Assembly: GCF_019578655.1 (NCBI RefSeq)
Contig: NC_063265.1
Location: forward strand, 13,302,501 to 13,366,500
Origin: Ricinus communis
Taxonomy: Eukaryota > Streptophyta > Magnoliopsida > Malpighiales > Euphorbiaceae
Length of the DNA: 64,000 bases
Direction: 5' to 3'
The translations under genes and the position numbers were made by a program. This document shows, piece by piece, positions 16 through 61,608 of the stretch (positions are counted from its first letter, which is position 1; the number at the start of each line of letters is the position of its first letter). A model generated the notes under the pieces. That model did not search any database. It was not told where the DNA came from and worked only from the letters and a program-made list of their open reading frames with translations.

Positions 16-1364
16 ATTATGTCAATGGGAGCTGGTTTATATATGCCATCCATGATGTTGCCTCCAGGAGTGCCTCACATGCATGTTGCTCATATGTCCC
101 AATTCTCACCCATGGGAGTGGGAATGGGTTTTGGGATGGGTATGCCTGATATGATTGGCGGTTCTTCTGGATGCTCTATGATTCAGGTGCCTCCTATGCA
201 TGGGGCACACTTTCCTAGCCCACCAATGTCAGGGCCAAGTGCTTTGCATGGAATGGGTGGATCTAATCTGCCAATGTTTGGGCTTTCTAGTCAAGGACAT
301 CCAATGCCATATCTATGTCCACCTGTAATGCCAATGTCTGGAGGACCACTTCTGAGAACTACCTTGGGACTGAATGCTGGAGGGGTGGCAGGTCCCACGG
401 ATAATTTGGACTCAGCCCCAGGTTCTAGTTCAAAGGACTCAATTCGTAATGTCAACTCACACTCGATACAAAATGGTGGTGCCAATAGTTCAATGAATCA
501 GACATCTACTCAGGTTTGTGAACTTGCTATGAAGTTGCATCTCGTGTGATAAACAAAGTGAAGCCTTAAACATGTATAAATTTTAAACCAGACTATTCTT
601 TTATAGAAAGAATTGACATGTTTTCTCTCCCCAGTAAATGACCCTCTTTATAACTCATGTTTGAGAAGAAATGCATTAGATGCAGAAGCAGACCCTAAAA
701 TTTACATATAAATATTGCAGTAAGGAAAACTTGACTTTCATCTATTTGGTCGAAAATTTATGTACTTCAATTTCTTATTTCCTCGTTTAAACTATTGTCA
801 TTTGGCTTTTGTTACTTGCGATTGCTTGAAGAAAAGTTATTGTTAATCAACAATCAACAATCATTTCCTCCATTATCATCCAGTTTTTTTTGTTTTCTCT
901 AATATCTGTTTGATGCTTGTGGATATTTTATGATTATTAATCAAAACATGGGAAGGTCACATTTGTATGGAGAAATGTGAATTTGGACAGGAAGTCCTTA
1001 TGCATTCAGTACGATATTAAACATTATGGATTTAAGGGGGGGAACCTTTTGGGAAGTTATATTGTCTACTTAATCTGAGATGTGCTATCCCATTAGTGCG
1101 CCTGAGCCTAAGAAAACTTTCATTATTTTGTAATGCCAGTGCCAAGTGACAAATGAACGTTTTGAACAGCCTGCTTTGGTGCAGAGTAGTGCTCAAGCCT
1201 CAGAAGTTGATAGTGGAGCTCTTAAGTCAGCTGATGAAAATGACAATGCGCCTAGTGAAGCTAATGGTAAGCATGCACTTGCAACCATAGTTAGCCACAC
1301 TTGCTATTTAAATTGATGTGGTTCGAAGGGTTAATTCATTTTATTTGCAGCAGATTGTGACTGA
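16..1364 (+). CDS. PIF3: PIF3-type bHLH transcription factor, 3' part only
   Basis: Three coding exons fit: 16..513, 1140..1266 and 1354..1364 (or from 1351). The window opens in an intron ending in CAG at 15, so the N-terminal phytochrome-binding regions and the bHLH domain lie off the left edge. The first visible residues (IMSMGAGLYMP) directly follow the bHLH in dicot PIF3 proteins. They are followed by the Met/Gly/Pro-rich stretch with MGVGMGFGMGMPDM and a Ser/Asn-rich region (NLDSAPGSSSKD, NSSMNQTS). The exon 2 start, CQVTNERFEQPALVQ, matches the conserved C-terminal motif of woody-dicot PIF3 as I remember it. Phases agree and the protein ends in (A)DCD. The family binds G-box/PBE promoter sites in the nucleus and is degraded after contact with active phytochrome. 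It converges on the next gene. Identity is strong; being partial is due to the window edge, not damage. Confidence 0.88.
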
Positions 1365-2732
1365 CAGGCACTTCTGATCATCATCATTAAGAGGTGAATC
1401 GATCTAAAGATCAAGGCTTTTCCTTGTTCATGGCGATTTGGGGCACATATGAATGTTTCAGGGGGATGGGAATGGGATGGACACTGAATGAAGTTGATTC
1501 GTATTGACGATCATATTGAACTCTAATTTCAGGACAGTTAGAATCCACAAAGATTTTGGTACGTTGAGGAGACTTTATAGCCCTTTCTTGCATTTGTACA
1601 TCCACTTACATATCAGAAATATGTTTCCTAATTTCTTTTTCTGTAGACCTTTCAGTACAAATTCTTTAAATTAATGAAAAAATAATTCGAATACATCTTG
1701 TGCAACTCTCTCTATCTACCTTCTGTTGTGATGTAATATGCTGTTCTCGTGTACGAAAAAATAAGACAATAGAAATGGCAGCTTGGCATACTTTCCACCC
1801 CTCTTCTGAATCTGCACGATGGTCATTTTGACAGTTCTAGCACAATACAATCAGGAGAACCTAGGTAAGAAAATGTGAAAACCACAAAAGCATTATCTAG
1901 ATGTTTCCAATATTCTAAATTCATAATTACTTCCCCATAATCTTCGTGTATAATGGATTTTGTCTTTAGTGTCAGTCATCAAATTGATTCTGTCAGTGCT
2001 GTAGGATTAGGATGAAACTACAGTGGGAACTGAAACCCTATTCAATAGACTAATTTAGTTATTAACAGTTCTATTCTATCTTATTATATTTTCCTCCTCC
2101 TATAAAAGTTGACCTAAAAATCATGCAAACACCTACAGGGTATGACAACTACATTCCTGTGAAGCAATGATCAATCATGTTAATCTGCAAGCATGGCCTT
2201 GCATGAGACATTTCAGGTAACAACGCTGAGGATGAAAAGGATGCCAGATCAATATCCATGTACAAATCATACTCCACTTATATATTAAGTTGCTTAAAGC
2301 AAATATTTCATTTTCGACATGACTTGGACTAGAGTCCTAGTTTTCTTTCCATCAATTACCAACAAAAGCATCATAAAGAAATTTCCTGATAGCAGTAACA
2401 GGTTGACGAGGAATTTAAAGAAGTGCAAGGAAAAAAGGATAGATATTTAAGTAGCAGAAACCTCAGGTCAACTTACTATTGAAGTACAACGAGCACATAA
2501 AATATGTAAGAATGACAAACTGTATCTACAAATCAATCTTCACAACTGGATAAGTTTTCTGTACTGTCATAATTGAAAATAGCCAACAAACAGCACACAA
2601 GCAATACATACTACTGAAAAGAATAGGGTGAAATGTAGGAACAATGAGTTTTAACACACAACTGAGTTCTGTATATCACAAAAGCAGATTCCACAACCTT
2701 ATGTTCACGCAAACTGTTTCCTTCCCTTTCAA
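1365..2732. other. PIF3 3' UTR and convergent intergenic spacer
   Basis: This stretch separates the stop of PIF3 from the stop of the convergent repeat-protein gene. It contains the 3' UTRs of both. I see AT-rich unique-looking DNA with AATAAT/AATGAA-type signals near 1670-1690, but no convincing ORF or RNA gene. Confidence 0.5.
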
Positions 2733-60100: not shown

Positions 60101-61608
60101 ACATCCTCAAGAGACAGAGCAGCTGAGTATCCAGCATCATACAAGCTATCTGTACTTAAGCCTGTGGAATCCATATGATACTCTGAGAGCCACACAGCTA
60201 TATCTCGAATTTGGAGATCACTGGGAGTTACTCCCAACCTCCATATCTTGTTCTTGTACAATAGTGCAGCTCCATCACACTTCACAAGATCTGTTATATT
60301 TGGACTTTGTGTCAGAATACCCAAAGGAGCATCTCGCAGCAACATATCGCATAAGAGTGTCTGGGTGCGCAGGATGTTCTTTTCAACAATCTGATTTTCC
60401 AATTCCAATTCCTTGTTGACATGAATAGCAAAGACTTGAGCTAGAAACTCACAGGCATACCTTAGAGGGAATGGAACAAATCGTGGAGTTGTATTATGGC
60501 ATACTACTAAACCCCAAAGTCTCTTTCTTTTCTGTGGTTGCACAGAAGTAGGACTATCATCATCTTCATCTCCTTCATTGACCACAACTGCCATAACCAG
60601 AGAAGCAACGGAGTCCATGTTCTCCATATACTGTAGATGGCAACTGTGTGGGGCCCTTAGGGTTGATCCGCACAAGGTTAGTTCTAATGGAAGCTTCTCA
60701 TCTTGTAGCACCTTGACATGTTTTGCACGGCAATCAACAATCATTCGGACCTTATTCTTCATAAATAAAAATCGTGCAGCCTGAGGAATATCAGTGGCAG
60801 GATAATGCAGACCCAAATATGGCTCTAAACCGGGCTTTGTGACCTCAGAGATAACTTCTCCATGGTCATCATCATGAAATTTATAAGTCATCACCCTGTC
60901 ATAACCAGTGAGCTCAAAAACCTCCTGAACCATTGTATCACAAAGCCTTTCCATACTCCCACTAGGCAATGACTGCAACCGGGAAATTGCTTTAGCGGCA
61001 AGCTTATATGACTGCAAGGCCCCTGCAGCAGTCATGGGGACCTCATATGGTTTTACTGGTTCAAAGTCGATTATAAAACTACCAGTTACCCGATGGACAA
61101 TAGCATAGAAGGGCTTCCCGGAAGTCTTGCAATGGACTAAAATGGGATTCAATAGAGAAACATCACCAAATCCTAGAGCTTTCTGCAAGGCAGAGGCACT
61201 GGGTGCAGTGAAGATAGTCCTTATGTCAGTTCCAATACCAAGAACTGGGTGATCCCCAACACTTGGAACTGCATGACTAACCATGGTCAACATTTCAGGG
61301 GCATTCTCACTATATGCAATAACCTTGTATGTTTTTTCATCTAAGGCTAGCAAGCAGCCAAAAGGCTGGATCAGCTTCCCTTTCTGTATATGATGAAGAT
61401 AAGCTGTGGTTACTTTGTCTGACCTGGGTGCATGATCTAAACCAGTAGAACTGGTAACATGCACAGAGTTTGAGTAGTCAAATGAACTGCCCGACTCCTC
61501 AAAATCTGCATGAAGCTTTGCATCTACAGCGGTCTGGGAAATAATCCTAGCACTGTGCCTTGATCTCACAGAATTGCTGGATGAGTGGCTGGGTCTCGAG
61601 GAAGACAT
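57128..61608 (-). CDS. PHYA: Phytochrome A photoreceptor
   Basis: Four coding exons, 59553..61608 (2,056 nt), 58193..59009 (817 nt), 57478..57768 (291 nt) and 57128..57338 (211 nt), give 1,124 residues, the usual phyA length and exon pattern. The start MSSSRPSHSSSNS is the Ser-rich phyA N-terminal extension. The PAS domain spans about 70-185 and the GAF domain about 218-400, with chromophore-attachment Cys323 in APHSCHLQYM and the DIP motif in HYPATDIPQAARFLF. The PHY domain spans about 410-585. Two regulatory PAS domains and a histidine-kinase-related domain follow (about 890-1115), whose kinase core is degenerate as in all plant phytochromes. phyA is the light-labile far-red sensor that moves to the nucleus and meets PIF3 and other partners. 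No damage is visible. Confidence 0.98.

Follow-up and report, generated by a model that had tools for sequence, protein, structure and literature searches.

The genes for phytochrome A (PHYA) and the transcription factor PIF3 lie at opposite ends of a 61-kb interval on C10 of castor bean (Ricinus communis), and a second block, on C1, holds several of the same neighbours in the same order but without PHYA. This PHYA-less sister block is what is new here, and it serves as a within-genome control. The linkage in castor is probably best explained by one ancestral angiosperm block that was inherited with few rearrangements. The linkage itself is not new, having already been published for flowering plants. 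The window, i.e. the whole 64,000-nucleotide stretch that was analysed, corresponds to C10:13302501-13366500 in a genome of 315.5 Mb.

The two ends of the block and the genes between them

PIF3 is cut by the window edge. Two of its seven coding exons (6 and 7) fall inside the window (Table 1), while exons 1-5, which encode the APB and APA motifs and the bHLH domain, lie to its left at coordinates -2318 to -82, up to 2.3 kb away. The initial annotation had called this gene from its tail alone, and its account of the linkage would have failed had the full sequence pointed to another gene. The complete protein (743 aa), spliced by hand from the genomic sequence, matches “transcription factor PIF3 isoform X2 [Ricinus communis]” at 100% identity across 98% of the spliced sequence, which settles the identity of the gene as PIF3. 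The protein has a bHLH domain and an APB motif (ELVWENGQI), and the matching database record carries PF00010. Its closest relatives among the best 120 of 1378 matches bear the name PIF3, and in a tree of 35 rows it is part of a PIF3 clade, where it groups with Manihot and Populus (support 100/100). The database records for PHYA and PIF3 both belong to a contig that has precisely the size of C10 (26,623,538 bases).

At the other end, the 716-aa open reading frame (ORF) of the first coding exon of PHYA scored 1338.6 bits against a solved phytochrome A and 842.2 against phytochrome B; it matched “phytochrome A [Ricinus communis]” with 99% identity and 97% query coverage. Judged by these matches, the predicted product is clearly phyA and not phyB. 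The Pfam domains PAS_2, GAF, PHY and PAS were identified. The four exons together account for residues 22-1124 of the database record (1124 aa), and 61561-61608 encodes the start peptide; position 61608, the right-hand limit given in the initial annotation, is the start codon. From its sequence the gene is full-length rather than a pseudogene. Beyond PHYA, to the right of the window, there are two near-identical 171-aa ORFs (L006:4664-5179 and 5837-6352, minus strand), which form a recent tandem duplication of ~1.17 kb.

The interval between PIF3 and PHYA contains seven genes supported by Pfam and one long ORF (Table 1). Since the two lie on one chromosome at a distance of no more than about 20 genes, they count as linked. 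The MYB, pectin acetylesterase and germin-like families, which the initial annotation had named, are all three present. For the glutamate-tRNA ligase-like gene, no second copy was found in the castor genome.

Table 1. Features of the C10 window (positions within the window) and of the sister block on C1 (chromosomal positions).
Feature	Position	Strand	Remarks
PIF3, coding exon 6	16..513	+	begins IMSMGAG, right after the bHLH
PIF3, coding exon 7 (last)	1140..1316	+	hand splicing
787-aa acidic, Glu/Val/Lys-rich, repeat-like ORF	2733..5096	-	putative only; adjoins PIF3; no Pfam match
R2R3-MYB gene	13880..15488	+	MYB61-like by position; the sequence test covers the Myb domain only
Pectin acetylesterase (PF03283)	21081..24510	-	many exons; limits approximate
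POT/NPF-family transporter (PF00854)	31221..33577	-	
FEN1-like flap endonuclease (XPG_N, XPG_I)	35612..38431	+	inner limits; gene extends on both sides
MBOAT-family acyltransferase (PF03062)	43112..46060	-	limits approximate
Germin-like protein (Cupin_1)	50025..50567	+	
Glutamate-tRNA ligase-like gene (tRNA-synt_1c)	53201..55215	-	
PHYA	57131..61608	-	complete; 4 coding exons; 1124 aa
C1 PIF3-like	9.2877-9.2884 Mb	+	
C1 MYB61-like	9.2986-9.3001 Mb	-	sole member inverted relative to C10
C1 pectin acetylesterase	9.3449-9.3483 Mb	-	
C1 germin-like	9.4119-9.4126 Mb	+	

A sister block on C1

The C1 block spans 125 kb and carries a PIF3-like gene, a MYB61-like gene, a pectin acetylesterase and a germin-like gene, in the same order as on C10. 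The best-scoring paralogue in the genome is on C1 for the MYB gene (276 bits, next 73, leaving one close paralogue only), for the germin-like gene (313 bits, next 206) and for the last-exon piece of the pectin acetylesterase (86 bits, next 68); the C1 PIF3-like protein bears the name PIF3 in the database. We did not find any trace of PHYA at C1 9.265-9.465 Mb, where a single match, with E 8.2, turned up at a cutoff of E 10. Likewise, pieces of PHYA and of the FEN1, MBOAT, POT and glutamate-tRNA ligase genes had no C1 match at E <=1e-4 in the 200 kb compared. Since C1 holds the PIF, MYB, acetylesterase and germin-like genes without PHYA, these members of the block, which have no known tie to PHYA, have stayed linked too.

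The dS values between C10 and C1 (NG86), which are near or at saturation, were 1.97 for the MYB gene and 1.62 for the pectin acetylesterase, and saturated for the germin-like gene. Values of 1.6-2.0 or above the measurable range indicate that the duplication is old; most likely it is the eudicot gamma triplication, a date that we infer. Dating of the split by phylogeny was tried and set aside: the 14 C1-type rows, all from rosids, fall into a single clade with 100/100 support, but the tree, rooted at the midpoint only, did not place this clade with respect to Nelumbo, poppies, magnoliids and monocots. Judging from the positions of the MYB, pectin acetylesterase and germin-like paralogues, no third sister block was found; the other pectin acetylesterase loci (one on C4, two on C5 and one on C10 at 4.06 Mb) are not beside a germin-like or MYB match.

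The C1 PIF3-like gene (L019:1350-3450) has kept the APB motif but is altered in its basic region (KKKRIPQVHSLSER) and sits on a longer branch. It may correspond to Arabidopsis PIL1, PIL2 or HFR1, which were placed in the syntenic family of PIF3 in the text of Michael 2022 (PMC9516744). By their published Arabidopsis codes, PIL2 (At3g62090) is near PAE6 (At3g62060) and a germin-like gene (AT3G62020), PIL1 (At2g46970) is near PAE3 (At2g46930), and HFR1 (At1g02340) adjoins a germin-like gene (AT1G02335). There is no PHYA beside any of the three, because PHYA is AT1G09570; PHYA-less sister segments thus persist in Arabidopsis too.

Why the pair has stayed linked

A chance meeting of the two genes, or a recent rearrangement in castor, has a negligible probability, and nothing we found speaks for it. 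The genome has three PHY loci only, and these and nine PIF/SPT-type loci placed at random in 315.5 Mb would give ~0.01 expected pairs within 61 kb, so that the linkage must be inherited; the same linkage, moreover, is found in many species. We also considered an ancestral PHY-PIF linkage predating the split of phytochrome types, and rejected it for castor: PHYB is on C9 and the other B/E-type phytochrome on C5, and neither C9 nor C5 has a PIF-type locus among the nine found in a genome scan whose pattern allowed up to three mismatches (strongly diverged members would escape it).

Our own survey covered 36 species, i.e. all those named with a contig size in both the best-120 PHYA and the best-120 PIF3 tables (rows typed by hand). 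PHYA and PIF3 were on one contig in 23 of them, taking contigs of equal size as the same contig; entries are clusters, and a mismatch may reflect another assembly. Among species in which both contigs reach 10 Mb or more the fraction was 19/22, a figure for this pair alone. The contigs did not match in 13 species, three of which have both contigs above 10 Mb (Tripterygium, Acer saccharum and Actinidia eriantha). Ziziphus was omitted for want of a PHYA contig, and Macleaya and Bertholletia, which also match but appear only in the C1-type PIF listing, were not counted. The method does not produce shared contigs indiscriminately, because the C1-type PIF3 paralogue was on the contig of PHYA in only one of ten species (Quillaja). 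Where the tags were readable, the locus-tag gaps between PHYA and PIF3 were 8 in Rhamnella and in Bauhinia, 10 in Vitis rotundifolia and in Ulmus, 13 in Acer yangbiense, 14 and 17 in Escallonia, 16 in Bertholletia and 38 in Camellia; the gaps of 161 in Craigia and 1252 in Erythroxylum indicate that one contig does not always mean close linkage. The deep conservation claimed in the initial annotation is supported.

In the explanation we favour, PIF3 and PHYA would both have been members of one ancestral angiosperm gene block that was rarely rearranged. An old duplication would have given the C10 and C1 copies, with PHYA retained on C10 and lost from the other copy. The unit kept would then be the whole block (PIF, MYB61-like, pectin acetylesterase and germin-like genes), persisting independently of PHYA, and drift with slow rearrangement may suffice without selection on the pair. 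The initial annotation held that a choice between a stable block and selection was beyond the sequence alone; this is now weakened, as the C1 sister block leans to the former, although a single case in one genome counts against a firm reading.

As an explanation, selection on the pair ranks below a stable block, and on this evidence we consider it quite unlikely. Michael 2022 (PMC9516744) proposes selection for co-inheritance, matched PIF3 and PHYA alleles being kept as an inherited unit (the “environmental robustness” model). According to the sections of that paper drawn on here, at least one linkage is present in 57% of 123 species, including Arabidopsis and Amborella, and the pair was kept through many polyploidies, soybean retaining four linkages; the Amborella blocks are very small, with little besides the pair, and later lineages have fewer intervening genes. 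Retention through polyploidy, the four soybean copies, the tiny Amborella blocks and the drop in intervening genes all count against a stable block, as does the high proportion of large-contig species in our survey that keep the pair together. The soybean maturity loci E3 and E4 (PMC9516744) and a mung bean flowering-time locus (PMC10935824), in the passages describing them, are linked pairs, and our overall survey count also fits selection. However, we found no genome-wide random-pair control in the main text of Michael 2022, the bystander genes are kept as well, even where PHYA is gone (C1), and PHYB, also a PIF3 binder, is unlinked to PIF-type loci in castor.

The phyA-binding motif may also count against selection on the pair. 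The APA motif of castor PIF3 is NFSHFSRPVALAKA, in which the first Phe (F203 in Arabidopsis) is kept and the second (F209) is Leu. Among the best 120 of 1378 PIF3 relatives, 112 have NFSHF, and their second APA position is Leu in 87, Ile in 10, Val in 5, Phe in 6 and another residue in 4; 106 of the 112 thus lack the second Phe, as castor does. A grape study (PMC6162725) had already noted that species other than Arabidopsis and tobacco have Leu in place of F209, the effect of this change by itself not being known according to its authors; elsewhere, a double Ala change is described as lowering phyA binding (PMC4869175), and maize PIF3s as showing weak or no detectable binding to phyA (PMC5301934). 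Because the second Phe is changed in castor and in most of these relatives, a conserved PHYA-PIF3 interaction appears uncertain outside Arabidopsis, and the premise of a physically interacting pair has to be qualified in the same way. The castor Leu is encoded in exon 2 (L004:5833-7054), left of the window. The second PIF3 copies of Manihot and Hevea have Phe at this position.

A role of shared chromatin, in which the block was kept as one regulatory domain for joint expression, is very improbable. The 61-kb spacing may be within reach of one chromatin domain, but the two genes are at opposite ends of the block, convergent (PIF3 on the plus strand, PHYA on the minus strand) and with at least seven genes between them. 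In the passages of Michael 2022 (PMC9516744) on Arabidopsis, their expression phases are 12 h apart, and antiphase whenever thermocycles are present.

It is also conceivable, though in our view unlikely, that the kept core is the set of PIF, MYB61-like, pectin acetylesterase and germin-like genes, with PHYA as a passenger lost by most duplicates. Three of these four families have links with the cell wall or apoplast. If this were true, the published account of selection on PIF3 and PHYA would be a by-product of core stability. The linkage has been taken as a receptor and its partner inherited as a matched set, with a bearing on flowering-time breeding. The castor C1 block offers a simple control here: it has the bystander genes without PHYA, and so shows what a claim of selection on the pair must first exclude.

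Comparison with Arabidopsis, mung bean and other flowering plants

The Arabidopsis segment has the same end genes as the castor block, with MYB61 and a germin-like gene between them. Codes in print are AT1G09570 for PHYA, AT1G09530 for PIF3, At1g09540 for MYB61 and At1g09560 for the germin-like gene; At1g09550 we take to be a pectin acetylesterase. The latter code was not found in literature searches for it, and we found no paper with three of the five gene codes of the block. The Arabidopsis neighbourhood described in the initial annotation is therefore documented for four of its genes. The code numbers fit three genes between PIF3 and PHYA, in contrast to at least seven in castor.

In mung bean, the account in PMC10935824 places PhyA and PIF3 on chromosome 4 at 29.66 and 29.70 Mb, 40 kb apart, with gene numbers 2773 and 2778. 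This resembles castor in the pair itself; it differs in that mung bean is a legume, and that the pair was found at a flowering-time locus through trait mapping.

The closest known case is that of Michael 2022 (PMC9516744), whose text describes the same two genes and the same linkage from Amborella to Arabidopsis and soybean, with 19 genes between PIF3 and PHYA in Amborella and 12 in grape, loss of the linkage in grasses, and, in Sphagnum, pairs that are on one chromosome but 7-8 Mb apart. Its main text makes no mention of castor or Ricinus. As far as the sections drawn on here go, that paper argues for selection, whereas the C1 block of castor provides a PHYA-less control.
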